NCBI GenBank assembly: GCA_030625965.1
Contig: DAOUPV010000015.1
Coordinates: 1 to 38,287, forward strand
DNA: 38,287 nucleotides
Direction of reading: 5' to 3'
Source: Clostridia bacterium
GTDB lineage: Bacteria > Bacillota > TC1 > UBA5767
Part shown: positions 1,376 through 33,690 of the stretch, one piece after another
How positions within the stretch are numbered: the stretch's first letter is position 1
How the letters are laid out: the number at the start of each line of letters is the position of its first letter
The notes under the pieces: model-generated
The model's database searches: none
Told to the model about the DNA's origin: nothing
Seen by the model: the letters and a program-made list of their open reading frames with translations, nothing else
Translations under genes and position numbers: made by a program

Positions 1376-3178
1376 ATGACAAATAAGAAAGTAGCTTGTC
1401 TTTACAGGGTATCTACAAAGAAGCAAATTGAGAAAGAAGATATCCCTATGCAGAAGAAAGCTTGTCAAGACTTCATATCAAGACATGAAGGTTGGGAGTC
1501 AGAGAAGGAATACTATGAAAAGGGTGTATCAGGTTACAAAGTGTCAAGTAGTGATAGAGATGTCCTACAGACAGTCCTGAAGGATGCCTCAAATGGAGTG
1601 TTTGATGTGCTCCTGGTCTTTAGCACTGACAGGCTTGGAAGAAGATCTGATGAATACACTCCCATAGTTAAGCAACTTAGTCATGATGTGGAAGTATGGT
1701 CAGTATCCCAGGGTGAGCTAACAATCAAAACCCACACTGATACACTCAAAACATTTGTAGATGGTTGGCAAAATGAAGGGGAGAGTATTAAGACCTCTCT
1801 TAGAATAGATGAGAAGCATAAACAAATGACAGAGGATGGTGTTTACAGAGGTGGTTGGGTTCCCTTTGGATACAAGAAGGTCAAATCAGGAAGGTATAAT
1901 TCTAGGGACAAGGATAAAAGAAAAGAATTGTATGATATGGCTATAGATGAAGACGAAGCTGAGGTAGTTCGTGAAATTTACGAACTGGCATTAAGAGGAA
2001 AGGGTGGTACAAGAATAGCACAAGCTTTAAATGAATCGGGTAAGAGAACAAAGAGAGGGAATTATTGGAATGCAACTACTGTATTCAAATTATTGAAGAA
2101 TCCAACTTATAAAGGGTATTTGAGCTATGGGAAGACATCATCAAAAAACGGAAAACAACGTAGACAAGACCCTTCAACATGGATACTTAGCTCTACACAG
2201 ATTGAAAGGCTTGTTATCGTGTCTGAAGACGAATGGGATAGAGTGAATGCAGGGATGGTCAGTCGTAGGAAAAAACCTGGGAGACCAAGCGAACCAACGA
2301 CATCAAGCAAGTTGCTGTTGCATGGACTACTTTACTGTGGACATTGCGATCATAAAATGACATCATCAACCCAATACAGAAACTACACTTATAAAACTGG
2401 TGAGAAGAAGGGGCAAAGCGAAAAGAAGATTTACTACAACTATAGATGCAATTGCAAAAAAGATGGTCATATATGTAATGGTAAAAAAACCTGTGCCTCA
2501 TGGAAAGTAGAAGAACCAGTTATTGAATTTGTAAAAGATTACTTAGACTCTTTGCGTGTTGATAATGTTAAAGATGATTTTATTAGACAACAAAAAAAGA
2601 CAGCTAAGGTGCTGGAAAGACAAGTAAAGAATAAAGCAAAAGAGTGCGAGAAAATTTACCAAGATATCAAGAACCTTGAAGAAGAACTACTTAAGGTCTT
2701 AACAGGTGAAAGTCCATTTAGTAGAGATCAGTTAGCTGACATAATGACTAAGAAGAAAACTGATTTGGTGACAGCTCAAGATGCACATAAAGCTTTGAAA
2801 GAAAACCTACAAGTTGCTAATGCTGACATCCAAGATGTTGACCAACTACAGGTTGTTATTCCAGTTTGGAGTGAAGTATTTGATAATGCTGACATCGAAC
2901 AAAAAAGAGATATGTTGAGAGCCATCATCGACAGAGTTGATCTATATGTTGATAGAGTTGAAATTAAGATTAAACTTCATATAGATGAGTTTATGGAGAG
3001 CATTTCTGACCCCAATGACTCTGACAATAATGATGAAGAGAAATGTACTGTAAAAAACAGTAAAGTGTCCATCCCAGGGAACTGTTCCGCCAGGCTATTC
3101 GACATGCCGCGGCAGGTATCATCCTGGTCCACAACCATCCCAGCGGTGATACTACGCCAAGTCAGGAGGACCTATTGA
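1376..3178 (+). CDS. Large serine recombinase (site-specific integrase)
   Basis: This 600-residue protein catalyses integration and excision of the element that carries it. The N-terminal resolvase domain holds the catalytic serine (Ser13 in YRVSTKKQ) and the arginine-rich DRLGRR motif near residue 83. A 'recombinase' DNA-binding domain follows (about 155-290, with [12 protein letters not shown] and a NPTYKGYL-type motif). Next comes a zinc-ribbon with CGHC and two later Cys pairs (about 320-370), and a long charged coiled coil (about 400-480), the standard large-serine-recombinase order. ATG 1376 is 7 bases after GGAGGTG. The last 37 or so codons (from about 3067) read through radC sequence in another frame, so the C-terminus of this integrated copy is encoded by host DNA. 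Such enzymes usually need a separate directionality factor to excise; none is visible here. Confidence 0.93.
3050..3076. other. Right attachment junction of the integrated element in radC
   Basis: The sequence changes here from AT-rich element DNA to radC coding sequence. In the radC frame, a stop codon (3061-3063) is followed at once by codons for SVHPRELF, a conserved RadC stretch, so the crossover lies at or just left of 3064-3075. The exact core cannot be fixed without the left junction, which is outside the window. An inverted repeat ACTGT-n5-ACAGT (3047-3061) sits just inside the element end. Confidence 0.75.
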
Positions 3179-3379: not shown

Positions 3380-4414
3380 ATGTTTAAAGCGAAAGACTTA
3401 GGAATAGATTTGGGAACAGCGAATATATTAGTATATATCAGAGGCGAAGGCGTAATCATGCAGGAGCCTTCCGTTGTGGCCATACAGAAGAACACCAAGG
3501 AAATTTTAGCAGTAGGCAGTGAAGCCAAACAGATGATCGGCCGTACGCCGGAAAACATCGTGGCCATCCGTCCGATGAAGGATGGAGTCATCGCCGACTT
3601 CGACGTTGCCCAGGCTATGTTGCGTTATTTCATTAACAAATCCAAGAGCAGATTTACGCTGATTAAGCCAAATGTAGTGGTAGGCGTACCGACAGGAATT
3701 ACTGCTGTAGAGGAACGCGCAGTCAAGGATGCGGCCTTGCAGGCTGGTGCCAAGGATGTTCAGCTTTTGGCGGAACCCATGGCTGCAGCCATCGGCTCAG
3801 GAATGCCGGTAGGGGAACCTACTGGAAACATGATTGTGGATATCGGTGGTGGTACGACAGAGGTGGCAGTCATATCTCTGGGTGGCATTGTGACCGACCG
3901 CTCTATCCGCGTCGGCGGAGACGAGATGGATGCCCATATCGTCAGTTACCTGAAACGCAAATACAACCTGTTGGTGGGTGAGAGAACTGCTGAGGATCTC
4001 AAGATGAAATACGGTAGCGCATATTTTTCCGATTCTGCAGAAGATCAAAAGCGAAGAAATCTCAAATGCTCCATCAGAGGTCGGGACCTTGTGGAAGGTC
4101 TGCCCAAGAATATTGAATTGACCGGGGATGAGATCTGCGAGGCCATGAAAGAGCCGGTAGGTCGTATCCTGGAAGGCATTCGCTACTGCCTGGAACATAC
4201 CCCACCCGAGCTTTCCTCGGATATCATGGATAAGGGTATTGTACTGGCAGGTGGTGGGTCGTTGCTTTATGGATTGGATAAACTGGTCCGAGATGAAACC
4301 CACATGCCGGTATATGTAGCTGAAGAGCCTCTTACCGCAGTGGCCGAAGGTACAGGTGTCGTGGTAGAAAACCTGGAAAAATGGAGGAGAATTCTAAGCA
4401 ACGTAAACAGCTGA
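3380..4414 (+). CDS. mreB: Rod-shape determining actin-like protein MreB
   Basis: MreB is a bacterial actin that forms membrane-bound filaments and positions the lateral cell-wall synthesis machinery. The 344-residue length is normal. The actin-fold nucleotide-binding motifs are present: DLGTANILVY near residue 9 (phosphate 1), DIGGGTTEVAVI near 152 (phosphate 2) and VLAGGGSLLYGLD near 290 (adenosine). The start at 3380 follows a GGGGGT ribosome binding site. It is the first gene of the mreBCD-mrdA-rodA cluster, 16 bases before mreC, and is the first intact gene after the radC fragment. Confidence 0.97.
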   Translation: MFKAKDLGIDLGTANILVYIRGEGVIMQEPSVVAIQKNTKEILAVGSEAKQMIGRTPENIVAIRPMKDGVIADFDVAQAMLRYFINKSKSRFTLIKPNVVVGVPTGITAVEERAVKDAALQAGAKDVQLLAEPMAAAIGSGMPVGEPTGNMIVDIGGGTTEVAVISLGGIVTDRSIRVGGDEMDAHIVSYLKRKYNLLVGERTAEDLKMKYGSAYFSDSAEDQKRRNLKCSIRGRDLVEGLPKNIELTGDEICEAMKEPVGRILEGIRYCLEHTPPELSSDIMDKGIVLAGGGSLLYGLDKLVRDETHMPVYVAEEPLTAVAEGTGVVVENLEKWRRILSNVNS

Positions 4415-29626: not shown

Positions 29627-30114
29627 CCAATATAGCCTTATATCTGGCGACAGTCCTGCTACTGGGCTTGTCGTATACCCGCGATAGAGGGAAAACCAGG
29701 AAAGCGCTTAAGAAAGCCCTGAAGGCTTTCAAGAACATATTGCCCCAGTTTCTGGGGATCATCGTGCTGGTAGGGTTGTTGATGGCCGTCTTTGACGCTG
29801 CATTCATATCCAGGCTCATCGGACAGGAATCCGGATGGCTGGGTGTGCTTCTTTCGGCAGTGGTGGGCGCCGTGACCCTGATTCCTGGGATCGTGGCTTT
29901 TCCTACGGCTGCCATGCTCATTCAAGGTGGGGCCGGCTACATGAAAATTGGGGCCTTTGTCTCCGCTTTGATGATGGTGGGCGTTGTGACCTTGCCAGTT
30001 GAGTTGGAATATTTCGGCCGGAGACTGAGCATAGCCAGAAACCTGCTGGCCTTTCTTTTCTCTCTGTTGGTGGCCTATATAATCGGAAAGGTGTGTGGTG
30101 GACTATGGTTCTAA
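29623..30114 (+). CDS. Permease half-protein A (COG0701/DUF318-like)
   Basis: The 163-residue protein has about four to five membrane helices. The segment GAVTLIPGIVAFPTAAMLIQGG near residue 88 resembles the conserved core of DUF318/ArsP-type permeases. It starts four bases before the VanW stop and overlaps permease B, so the two are probably two halves of one transporter made from adjacent genes. The substrate is not known. Confidence 0.8.
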   Translation: MTNIALYLATVLLLGLSYTRDRGKTRKALKKALKAFKNILPQFLGIIVLVGLLMAVFDAAFISRLIGQESGWLGVLLSAVVGAVTLIPGIVAFPTAAMLIQGGAGYMKIGAFVSALMMVGVVTLPVELEYFGRRLSIARNLLAFLFSLLVAYIIGKVCGGLWF

Positions 30115-30539
30115 TCAAGAGGTACAGGTTTTTCCTTGCGACCGCAACCATCTTGCTGGTCATATCACTAGTCAACCAGGAAATAGGCAGCAGGGCTGTG
30201 GGCGTAGTCGGCTATACCTTCAGGGAAATGGCCATGATCATCCCACCGGTATTCATTCTGCTGGGGCTTCTGGATGTCTGGATTCCCCGGGAGACCATGA
30301 TGCGATTCATGGGCGAAGGATCCGGGGTCAAAGGTATGCTTATCGCCATACTGCTGGGTTCCGCAGCAACTGGTCCATTGTACGCGGCTTTCCCGGTTGC
30401 CTCGGTATTTATGAAGAAGGGTGTGAAATTCAGTAACGTACTTATTTTCATCGGAGCTTGGACACGGAGCAAATTTACTCAGTACCAAACTACACCAAAA
30501 TTATGGATAAATTCTCAGTATCTTAGAAATCTACAATAA
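30105..30539 (+). pseudogene. Permease half-protein B, 5' part, cut by an insertion
   Basis: The frame encodes a membrane protein like permease A, with GSAATGPLYAAFPVASVFM near residue 90, up to GAW at codon 30459-30461. The rest (from 30462) is insert-derived (TRSKFTQYQTTPK and on) and ends at 30539. The missing C-terminal segment reappears in frame at 32020-32196. Joining at the tryptophan codon rebuilds GAW-STTKIPMFLFELSN, so the gene was whole before the insertion. ATG 30105 is preferred, overlapping the permease A stop. Confidence 0.85.
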
Positions 30540-30570: not shown

Positions 30571-30738
30571 TTGCTATGTTGAAAATGATCGATAGGTAAA
30601 AATTTATTTTTGGCAATTACAAATAGTACGAAATCCTTCTCATTTAAGGGCTTTTTTATTTTGCAGGGATGGTGTAGGATGGTAACAATACAACAAATTA
30701 GATCTAATGTTCATTTTACATTTGATAGGGAGAATAAT

Positions 30739-31731
30739 ATGGCAGATAAGAAGTATCAAGTCTTTATCAGTTCGACGTATATGGATTTAATCGAAGAGCG
30801 TCGAGCAATTATTGAGAACATTTTAGTGGCTGACTGTATACCAGCTGGTATGGAAGCTTTCGTTGCAACTGATGATGAACAGTTCGAAGTAATAAAAAAA
30901 GTGATTGATCTTTGTGATTACTACGTGCTTGTGATTGGGAAAAGATATGGCACAGTGAATCTAGATACTAAACTTAGTTATACTGAGATGGAGTATGATT
31001 ATGCTATAGAGAAACAGATACCAGTTCTTGTGTTTGCTATCGACGAGAAAGTTACCCTATCTTCTGACAAAGAAGAACAGGAAACTACCAATATTGAGAA
31101 ACTTAAATGTTTTCGAGAAAAAGCAATGAAGAGTAGAATGGCTAGTGTTTGGAAAGATAGCAGTGAATTAGCATTATACGTATCTCATTCAATTAATTCT
31201 GCGAAGGCGAATACTCCTCGACTAGGATGGCAAAGAGCTACGGATTATGATGAAGCATCATTACGACGTAAGATAATGGACATGCAATTGAACAAATTGG
31301 TTTTAGAAAAAGAACTAGCAACAGCAAAAGAACAGATTCAGATGTATCTCGAACAGAATGATGTTGCATTTGAAGATGTTACAGTTAATGCTCGTTACAA
31401 CTATTTTCGGGATACTGGTGGGCGTATTCATGTTGATAAAGAAGTTTCTCTAGAAATGATATTCACGATTGTAGCTACACAGATGATGGATGTAATGATA
31501 CCAGAGACGAGTATTTCTAATATTTTACTGGAAAAACTGACCGGAACCTCGTACGATCACTATTTCAGTGATACTCAATTTGTGAAGACAATTCTAAATC
31601 AATTTCGTGCTATTGGGCTGATTAATCCAAGTTGGAGGAAGGAAAAGTCATTACTATTATGGGGTTTAACAAAGAAAGGTCAAAAAATCCGTGATGATAG
31701 AATTTTAATTAGGAATAGCGAGGAAGAATAA
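30739..31731 (+). CDS. DUF4062 domain protein (insert cargo)
   Basis: The 330-residue protein begins MADKKYQVFISSTYMDLIEERRAI, the hallmark of DUF4062, with PAGMEAFVATDDEQFEVIKK near residue 34 and CDYYVLVIGKRYGTV near 58. The domain covers about residues 4-95 and shows up as the N-terminal part of several NTPase and defence-type proteins. Here no NTPase follows; instead there is a short coiled-coil stretch (about 185-215) and a C-terminal part ending in a winged-helix-like LLLWGLTKKGQKIRDD. ATG 30739 follows AGGGAG; an upstream in-frame start (30610) lacks support. A nucleotide-sensing or anti-phage role is possible but unproven. Confidence 0.85.
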   Translation: MADKKYQVFISSTYMDLIEERRAIIENILVADCIPAGMEAFVATDDEQFEVIKKVIDLCDYYVLVIGKRYGTVNLDTKLSYTEMEYDYAIEKQIPVLVFAIDEKVTLSSDKEEQETTNIEKLKCFREKAMKSRMASVWKDSSELALYVSHSINSAKANTPRLGWQRATDYDEASLRRKIMDMQLNKLVLEKELATAKEQIQMYLEQNDVAFEDVTVNARYNYFRDTGGRIHVDKEVSLEMIFTIVATQMMDVMIPETSISNILLEKLTGTSYDHYFSDTQFVKTILNQFRAIGLINPSWRKEKSLLLWGLTKKGQKIRDDRILIRNSEEE

Positions 31732-32019: not shown

Positions 32020-32196
32020 TGGTCTACCACCAAGATACCCATGTTCCTGTTTGAGTTGTCCAATTTGGGAGCACGATTTGCGGTGACTCGTCTGTTGGTG
32101 GACATTCCCGGCATCATAATTATCGCCCATATCCTTAGCAGAATGACGGCAAAAAAAGAAGTGGAACGCATCTACCGCAAAGCGGAGGCCAGATAA
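32020..32196 (+). pseudogene. Permease half-protein B, detached 3' part
   Basis: The frame TGG-TCT-ACC-ACC continues as KIPMFLFELSNLGARF, then a hydrophobic VDIPGIIIIAHIL and a charged tail to the stop at 32194-32196. It supplies the C-terminal helix missing from the 30105-30461 fragment and lies in the same reading phase after removal of 1,561 bases. ATG 32041 could in theory restart translation, but no ribosome binding site is seen. Confidence 0.85.
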
Positions 32197-32271
32197 AAGC
32201 TATTTACGGCATTTGCTCAACCACCGGGTAGAACTATCTTATTACCAATACCTGGAGTATAATATAGATAA

Positions 32272-32402
32272 TTAATGAGGTGCTTGCAGGAAATTGGGTG
32301 TGATTCCCAGACAGTCCTAGCTACCGTTACAGTCGGAAAACGCAAGCCGCCAATATTTACTCTAGGGTTAGACTTCGGGCTGCCTTAGGCAGCCTATTTT
32401 TT
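32272..32402 (+). promoter_or_regulatory. Cobalamin-type riboswitch with terminator
   Basis: The leader contains GAGGTGCTTGCAGGAAATTGGGTG, GATTCCCAGACAGTCC, an AGCTACCGTTACAG stretch in the place of the B12-box, and CGGAAAACGCAAGCCGCC, in the order seen in cobalamin riboswitches. GCTTGC (32282-32287) can pair with GCAAGC (32342-32347). A terminator hairpin GGCTGCC-TTA-GGCAGCC (32378-32394) with a T-run ends just before the AGGAG of the next gene, which suggests control of transcription by ligand. A TATAAT at 32258-32263 is a likely -10 element. No covariance model was run. Confidence 0.82.
32377..32402 (+). terminator. Riboswitch expression-platform terminator
   Basis: A perfect 7-base-pair stem with a three-base loop is followed by TATTTTTT, directly before the ribosome binding site at 32403. 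Confidence 0.85.
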
Positions 32403-32414
32403 AGGAGAAACGAC

Positions 32415-32801
32415 ATGAAAAAAGATTACAGGATAAAAAAACCGGAATTATTGGTGGTAGTTCTGCTACTACTGGTTACGGTCTTTGCTGGATGTGCAGA
32501 ACAGACTTCATTGGATGAGAAGAGCATAGTGATAGAAGTGAACGGGATCGATGGATACGAGAACCTATATGAGGTAACGACAGAGGTGGAGTATTTGGGA
32601 GAACTACTCGATGAGATGCAGATTGCTCAACTGGTAGAGAGCGATTTCGGTCGCTATATCGTTTCCGTGGACGGTTATGTCGCCGATGAGATGCGTGAAT
32701 ACTGGAGTATCAGCCACAATGGTGATTATGCCACGGCAGGTGCAGATGAATTGATACTTGGAGATGGCGATATTATCATATTGGCCATCGACGAGTTTTA
32801 G
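32415..32801 (+). CDS. DUF4430 lipoprotein, transcobalamin-like domain (first copy)
   Basis: The 128-residue protein has a lipoprotein signal (hydrophobic 12-24, lipobox FAGC with Cys27), so it is probably anchored outside the membrane. The rest is a DUF4430 domain, with YWSISHNGDYATAGADELI and LGDGDIIIL at the end. DUF4430 is related to the C-terminal beta domain of transcobalamin/intrinsic factor. Under the cobalamin riboswitch and next to an ECF substrate-binding membrane protein, it is a good candidate for an extracellular corrinoid-capture protein. That function is inference. Confidence 0.85.
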   Translation: MKKDYRIKKPELLVVVLLLLVTVFAGCAEQTSLDEKSIVIEVNGIDGYENLYEVTTEVEYLGELLDEMQIAQLVESDFGRYIVSVDGYVADEMREYWSISHNGDYATAGADELILGDGDIIILAIDEF

Positions 32802-32811
32802 AGGTGAGATT

Positions 32812-33294
32812 ATGAAAGCCAAAGAAGTGGCCTTTGCGGCCTTATTTGCATCCTTGTTTACCTTGGGTGACTTTCTATCTGTATATAATTTCCAGGTCGT
32901 AACAGCTTTCATGGTAGTATGCTACGTTTTCTGCGGTCGTAGGGTGCTCTTAGCTGGAACGTTCATCTATGGCCTGATCGATGTCATATTCGGGCTAGGT
33001 ATGTACTGGACACTGGTGCTGAATTGGGAGACTGCCGCTCTGACCATCATTCTGGTCCTGCACTTGAGACCCAAAGCGTATGGTTTGGCAGCCGGTTTGG
33101 CCTTTCTTACCTTCAGCCTCGTAGATGCAGTCGTGGCCTCAATAATATTGGACGTATCCATCTGGGCTTATTTGGTGGCCGGTAGCTTTTTCGTTGTGCG
33201 AGGTGTACTATCCGGGATGCTCGTTGGAGCCATTCTCGTTAAAATACTAGAAAGAAGGACGAATTTACATGAGACATTTCAGAAAACCAGCTAA
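32812..33294 (+). CDS. ECF transporter S component, probably corrinoid-related
   Basis: The 160-residue protein has about five to six hydrophobic helices and starts MKAKEVAFAALFASLFTLGDF, the N-terminal pattern of ECF-type substrate-binding S components. ATG 32812 follows GAGGTGA, ten bases after the first DUF4430 gene. No ATPase or T component is nearby, so a shared energising module elsewhere would be needed. The riboswitch upstream suggests cobalamin or a precursor as substrate. It overlaps the second DUF4430 gene by 26 bases. Confidence 0.8.
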   Translation: MKAKEVAFAALFASLFTLGDFLSVYNFQVVTAFMVVCYVFCGRRVLLAGTFIYGLIDVIFGLGMYWTLVLNWETAALTIILVLHLRPKAYGLAAGLAFLTFSLVDAVVASIILDVSIWAYLVAGSFFVVRGVLSGMLVGAILVKILERRTNLHETFQKTS

Positions 33295-33649
33295 AATTAT
33301 TTTGTGTGTCCTAGTGGTCATGTTGCTTGTAGGCTGCGCAAAGGAATCGCCGGCTCAAACCGGCAAAAGTGTCACCATTGAGATCAGGGACTTGGAGGGT
33401 GCGCAGCTATCATTAATTGAGACAGTGACAAATGCGGAGAACCTAGCCGATCTTCTAATGGATCAGGAGCTGATGGATTATGATGAGACAGGGCTCGGCA
33501 GATTCATAACCGGCCTGGCAGGAGTAATAGCGGATCCCAGTACAGAATATTGGGCGATCTATGTGAATGGGGAGTATGGGCTTTACGGTGCGGATAACCA
33601 GAAAATAGAGGATGGTGACCAGTTCCTGTTCCTCCTGGAAGAATATTAA
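33269..33649 (+). CDS. DUF4430 lipoprotein, transcobalamin-like domain (second copy)
   Basis: The 126-residue protein has a lipoprotein signal (hydrophobic 10-21, lipobox LVGC with Cys23) and a DUF4430 domain ending YWAIYVNGEYGLYGADNQK and EDGDQFLFLLEEY. The two copies share this end but differ through most of their length, so they are not a recent duplication. Two different surface proteins around one S component suggest either two ligands or a paired binding site. The start lies inside the S-component gene, which suggests translational coupling. Confidence 0.85.
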   Translation: MRHFRKPAKIILCVLVVMLLVGCAKESPAQTGKSVTIEIRDLEGAQLSLIETVTNAENLADLLMDQELMDYDETGLGRFITGLAGVIADPSTEYWAIYVNGEYGLYGADNQKIEDGDQFLFLLEEY

Positions 33650-33660
33650 TGAATCTTTTT

Positions 33661-33690
33661 AATCCCGTTTCTTTGGAAGCGGGATTTTTT
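33661..33690 (+). terminator. Rho-independent terminator after the DUF4430 operon
   Basis: The stem AATCCCG-TTTC/GAAG-CGGGATT (inner mismatch) is followed by TTTTTT. Confidence 0.9.

Follow-up and report, generated by a model that had tools for sequence, protein, structure and literature searches.

Gram-positive bacteria have been predicted to scavenge B12 with proteins that are kin to the animal B12 carriers (Burroughs et al. 2007, PMC1796856). In that study, the DUF4430 beta-grasp domain was described on secreted Gram-positive proteins, both as paralogous pairs within one operon and as stand-alone domains, with a beta-hairpin insert after the helix as a clade feature, and the predicted scavenging was placed alongside CbiO/CbiQ-type transport genes. 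Its main text mentions neither riboswitch, lipoprotein nor S-layer, and an association of DUF4430 with riboswitches or with CbrT was not found there. Our literature search returned no paper joining DUF4430, by name, to bacterial cobalamin uptake, and no experimental test of the 2007 prediction. On the transport side, CbrT is an S component for B12 and cobinamide that uses a shared ECF module (PMC5997447). Homologues of this protein, known from the ECF-CbrT of Lactobacillus delbrueckii (PDB 6fnp), adjoin DUF4430 genes, and the paper on ECF-CbrT makes no mention of a lipoprotein (PMC5997447). Capture of B12 at the cell surface ahead of a transporter is described for the Bacteroides surface lipoproteins BtuG and BtuH (PMC6143338, PMC8941943).

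The operon described here lies in a stretch of 38,287 nucleotides from the genome of a Clostridia bacterium, the whole of which is referred to below as the window. Its best reading, which we hold to be probable, is that of a corrinoid capture and import unit, because it is conserved within its family, because DUF4430 is kin to transcobalamin, and because DUF4430 is linked across the phylum to riboswitches and CbrT. With the systems of Burroughs et al. (2007) it has in common a paralogous DUF4430 pair in one operon, but it has no toroid and no CbiO/CbiQ gene, and an S-like protein sits between its two lipoproteins. The general concept is not new. What is new is the toroid-free version with two lipoproteins and an unrecognised S-like protein, in a family of genomes that is devoid of CbrT. 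With its three genes, the operon offers a small test bed for the prediction that Gram-positive cells obtain B12 through bacterial cousins of human intrinsic factor and transcobalamin that capture it.

Operon layout and riboswitch leader

From 5' to 3', the operon consists of a riboswitch, a terminator, DUF4430 lipoprotein a, a membrane protein, DUF4430 lipoprotein b and a second terminator, the first 26 bp of the gene for lipoprotein b being shared with the end of the membrane gene. The features, in window coordinates, are the following.

32258..32263, + strand: TATAAT, tentative candidate for the -10 of the operon promoter (sequence reading; aligned columns conserved in the relatives' leaders)
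32281..32348, + strand: AdoCbl-II riboswitch aptamer RF01689 (covariance match; same place in relatives G001, G002 and G003)
32361..32373, + strand: expression-platform segment CUCUAGGGUUAGA, whose CUAGG is complementary to the CCUAG of the aptamer loop
32377..32403, + strand: rho-independent terminator of the riboswitch expression platform (8-pair stem and T run)
32415..32801, + strand: DUF4430 lipoprotein a, 128 aa, transcobalamin-beta-like (PF14478, E 4e-9; lipobox VFAGC)
32812..33294, + strand: membrane protein with six helices, 160 aa, probably an ECF S component that has diverged strongly (remote profile match)
33269..33649, + strand: DUF4430 lipoprotein b, 126 aa (PF14478, E 1e-9; lipobox LLVGC; PDB 3u7z, E 5.9e-6)
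33661..33686, + strand: operon terminator (11-pair stem and T run)

A preliminary description, made from the letters of the DNA, had placed a B12-type riboswitch with a terminator at the head of the operon. This was borne out by a covariance search with Infernal, in which the AdoCbl-II riboswitch RF01689 was found at 32281-32348 (+) with 40.1 bits (E 2.6e-6), above its gathering score of 36.5, as the sole Rfam match in the window; the leaders of the three relatives score 40.5, 41.8 and 49 bits. The hairpin of the riboswitch terminator (GGCTGCC-TTA-GGCAGCC, then a T run, 32377-32403) has its stem kept in 4/4 leaders (in G002 a G-C pair is replaced by A-U), and all four leaders thereby display a switchable expression platform, in the form of a conserved terminator between the aptamer and the first gene. 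Cobalamin riboswitches are known for long-range loop pairing, which CCUAG and CUAGG fit, and these two motifs are likely to constitute such a pairing between aptamer and platform. Read by eye in the alignment, both are present in the leaders of the window, G001 and G002, while G003 has CCUGG with CCAGG instead, a compensating change (one alignment column is shifted there and the register was adjusted by eye). The folding energy of the leader RNA is not unusual (z -0.71); the evidence for its structure is the Rfam model together with conservation. A promoter scan of the leader found no good -35 for the TATAAT. Going by this anatomy, plentiful AdoCbl would bind the aptamer and transcription would stop at the terminator, and the operon would be transcribed when AdoCbl is scarce.

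Relatives of the membrane protein place it in four genomes including the source, two of the others belonging to the same genus and one to the same family (identities 82, 63 and 61%). All four retain the riboswitch and the membrane gene together with one or more DUF4430 genes, which argues that the linkage is more than chance. Gene order varies, from riboswitch-DUF4430-membrane gene-DUF4430 in the window genome to riboswitch-membrane gene-DUF4430 in G002 and G003 and riboswitch-DUF4430-membrane gene in G001. Lipoprotein a is nearest to the G001 copy (51% identity) and lipoprotein b to the G002 copy (63%), which suggests that both lipoprotein types predate the split of these species.

The lipoproteins and the transcobalamin beta domain

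Two diverged DUF4430 lipoproteins do flank the membrane protein, as had been claimed: PF14478 matches on both sides with 37.2 and 39.2 bits (curated cut-off 23.8), both proteins carry lipobox-like signal sequences (FAGC and LVGC), and they are 34% identical after the lipobox Cys. The further claim, of kinship between DUF4430 and the beta domain of transcobalamin, holds by fold as well as by profile. The AlphaFold model of lipoprotein a (mean pLDDT 83) has as its best Foldseek match 3u7z, a DUF4430 protein of Ruminococcus gnavus (E 8e-10), and matches the beta domain of human transcobalamin in 5no0 and 5np4 at about 1e-6 in both cases (5np4: E 1.2e-6, target TM 0.72). Haptocorrin and intrinsic factor also match, all with E 2e-5 or better (1.6e-6 for 4kki), and a profile built from nine DUF4430 lipoproteins matches human haptocorrin (TCN1) by sequence (E 1.8e-6). 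Both 5no0 (apo) and 5np4 (cyanocobalamin-bound) consist of the beta domain alone, so that an isolated beta domain has already been crystallised with cyanocobalamin. In the model of lipoprotein a, strands 71-76 and 79-85 follow a helix at 61-68, a candidate for the beta-hairpin insert of Burroughs et al. (2007).

Human transcobalamin, haptocorrin and intrinsic factor have the beta-domain fold and a G...YW...G...G pattern in common with the window lipoproteins. The animal carriers have, in addition, an alpha/alpha toroid domain, whereas the window lipoproteins are membrane-anchored and toroid-free. The missing toroid counts against a role in corrinoid scavenging, since B12 lies buried by this domain in the animal proteins. 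Like BtuG and BtuH, which capture B12 before a transporter, they are surface lipoproteins, and a similar capture role is proposed for them. The folds of BtuG and BtuH differ from that of the window lipoproteins, and their partner is an outer-membrane TonB system, whereas the window system belongs to a Gram-positive envelope and has a probable ECF partner. Anchored at the outside of the membrane, the lipoproteins would hold a corrinoid (cobamide or cobinamide) in their transcobalamin-beta-like fold.

DUF4430 loci in the phylum and in the source genome

DUF4430 was found in 90 of the 299 sampled genomes of the phylum (about 30%). The survey took in about 7 kb around each of 36 DUF4430 loci, which were chosen for their high scores rather than at random, with a single locus from each genome; some of them are cut by contig ends. 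A cobalamin riboswitch (RF00174) lies upstream and co-directional in 26 of these 36 (median 2.2 kb before the domain), against a chance expectation of 0.9 derived from the riboswitch density of the source genome of the window, and such a riboswitch was seen in 0/20 BioY loci of the same phylum that served as a control. Three loci (L069, L075 and L083) have no riboswitch beside their DUF4430 genes in the stretch examined, which for L083 is truncated where the contig stops. The association extends to the transporter: a search of 199 genomes gave 61 strong homologues of a CbrT-like protein, that of locus L078, and 52 of these homologues lie within 10 kb of DUF4430. This protein matches PDB 6fnp, which we take to be ECF-CbrT, the B12 S component, with E 4e-20. 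A strong, phylum-wide association of DUF4430 genes with cobalamin riboswitches and CbrT is therefore well supported, which makes the 2007 prediction much stronger. If corrinoid capture is indeed their role, a function would be named for a family present in some 30% of the sampled genomes (90/299), with a bearing on competition for B12 in anaerobic communities.

The L078 locus (G268:C8:532500-540000) has a riboswitch and genes for a DUF4430 lipoprotein, a CbrT homologue and a cobalamin adenosyltransferase in a row, and reads as a close parallel to the window operon; for bench tests it is the cleaner system of the two. Five loci (L071, L076, L096, L103 and L104) have two cobalamin riboswitches each, either in tandem before one operon or one gene apart. 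Larger DUF4430 loci encode an SLH-anchored protein combining a squalene-cyclase-type toroid with DUF4430, then a smaller DUF4430 protein and then an EcfT-like gene.

The third DUF4430 gene of the source genome is also under a cobalamin riboswitch. On contig C144 (L008:2591-7809), such a riboswitch is followed by two genes. The first encodes a protein of 1212 aa that has Cu_amine_oxidN1 and two stretches of DUF4430; the product of the second, 444 aa long, is a toroid protein of the squalene-cyclase type that has Cu_amine_oxidN1 and is devoid of DUF4430. This large wall-type DUF4430 protein and the toroid protein may serve as an outer collector. A bolder version would be a split transcobalamin, in which the toroid half from C144 and the beta halves from the window, encoded at separate riboswitch loci, close around a corrinoid at the surface and feed a new S-component family; we regard it as doubtful. 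In descriptions of ECF transporters, substrate binding falls to the S component in the membrane, and an extracellular carrier of this kind would be a new mode for them.

The membrane protein and the probable import substrate

The membrane protein had been put down as an ECF S component, a name that no sequence library gives it. It has no sequence match in Pfam, NCBIfam or PDB, and none of the four family members matches a recognised S-component family (PF12822, PF07155 or other). A scan of genome contigs with the single protein returned no relatives, a scan with the alignment added the same two relatives only, and its profile (hmmsearch, 299 genomes of the phylum) gave no convincing match outside the four family genomes. 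Partial matches in G088, G096 and G237 (E 0.003-0.006) were judged to be due to chance, and matches to Frizzled and SecY were unconvincing and were dismissed. The AlphaFold model has six helices and is poor (pLDDT 57.6); RibU S components head its Foldseek matches without reaching significance (E 1.8). In profile-profile comparisons, there was a marginal match to CbrT that runs end to end over 149 columns (E 1.6e-4, score 32), nearly equalled by one to BioY (E 4e-4, about 148 columns), and none to two other S families, the CblT-type being among those unmatched. Scores against CbrT and BioY are 30-32, and block-shuffled CbrT profiles reach at most 24; the CbrT match is unstable, its E-value ranging from 2.6e-4 to 0.02 among subsamples of the CbrT set, and known S families match one another far better (7e-7 to 2.5e-11). 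A search for CbrT homologues gave no match at the window protein and only a weak one elsewhere in its genome (3.3e-4, C40), so that the protein is not recognisable as CbrT and resembles it by the remote profile match only. The window's family is without CbrT, and the S-like membrane gene sits in the CbrT position. We consider it likely that the protein is an ECF S component: the earlier claim keeps the marginal CbrT/BioY match in its favour and has against it the silence of the libraries and the poor model. For the corrinoid-scavenging reading as a whole, a membrane protein that matches no known family and has a marginal, unstable CbrT match is the weak point.

A motor for such a protein would appear to be at hand. 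Six EcfT genes score above cut-off in the genome, and one locus reads EcfA, EcfA', EcfT, truA, rplM (names other than EcfT by reading), the neighbourhood of truA and rplM being the usual place of the shared ECF module; an energising EcfAA'T module is thus predicted to be available. Two further loci of the genome, L013 (C145) and L014 (C9), are near-identical; in both, EcfT and a pair of ECF ATPase genes accompany an amidohydrolase-like gene. The lipoproteins would hand the corrinoid to the membrane protein, acting as a diverged S component in the slot of CbrT, which would dock on the shared EcfAA'T motor for ATP-driven import. If this is true, ECF vitamin importers sometimes work with an extracellular capture protein.

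Alternatively, the lipoproteins could capture a corrinoid and pass it to a separate BtuFCD importer, the membrane protein being an accessory or a sensor rather than an S component. The missing S-family match and the poor model are compatible with this, and a BtuF-BtuC locus (L027, a Peripla_BP_2 and BtuC-like pair) does lie elsewhere in the genome under a cobalamin riboswitch, the window operon itself having no BtuF-type binding protein and no BtuCD permease or ATPase. The size of the membrane protein, its six hydrophobic helices, its occupation of the position held by CbrT in other genomes and its end-to-end alignment to CbrT and BioY, scoring well above the shuffled profiles, all speak for an S component, and we consider the alternative unlikely. 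Cobalamin riboswitches also precede hemA (L022), a gene for CbiK (L025) and an alcohol dehydrogenase-like gene (L024). Several riboswitch-controlled corrinoid loci imply that several routes to corrinoids, and some genes of the corrin pathway, are open to the organism and, with BtuF-BtuC and CbiK among them, the genome is not obviously dependent on the window operon.

Transporters of lower-ligand precursors are also controlled by B12 riboswitches. The operon might accordingly import dimethylbenzimidazole or alpha-ribazole, as CblT does, with the DUF4430 proteins binding that part of the molecule, and a small S-like membrane protein that matches no family would suit this role. However, a separate locus of the genome (L023), controlled by a cobalamin riboswitch of its own, holds the gene for a CblT-type S component and next to it a CblS-like gene (names by reading), profile comparison gave no match between the window protein and the CblT-type family, and the fold of DUF4430 is that of carriers of whole cobalamin, which together render import of a precursor improbable.

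Cobalt importers, too, are often found under B12 riboswitches. Uptake of cobalt or another metal, with DUF4430 as a metal-binding protein in keeping with the deposition of 3u7z as a 'putative metal binding protein', is nevertheless very improbable, given that the columns invariant among nine DUF4430 lipoproteins (Met1, L61, G87, W97, G109 and G118) contain no conserved metal-ligand cluster, that the structural neighbours of DUF4430 are B12 carriers, and that DUF4430 adjoins CbrT, a transporter of B12 and cobinamide (PMC5997447).

Elsewhere in the window, just upstream of the operon, a gene for an ArsP_1-like permease appears to be split into two parts (30093-30539 and 32020-32196). The 5' part breaks off after '...FIGAW' near 30460, and what reads as its continuation in the same frame, WSTTKIPMFLFELSNLGARF..., is found at 32020-32196. 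The two parts are separated by about 1.5 kb that includes a DUF4062 gene (30733-31731), and a search for direct repeats on the flanks gave none. At the other end of the window, a large serine recombinase gene (1376-3178) is found immediately upstream of a cell-shape gene resembling mreB (3380-4414) and is preceded by a gene with a weak DUF6236 match (95-949), which suggests that this region is an integrated element.
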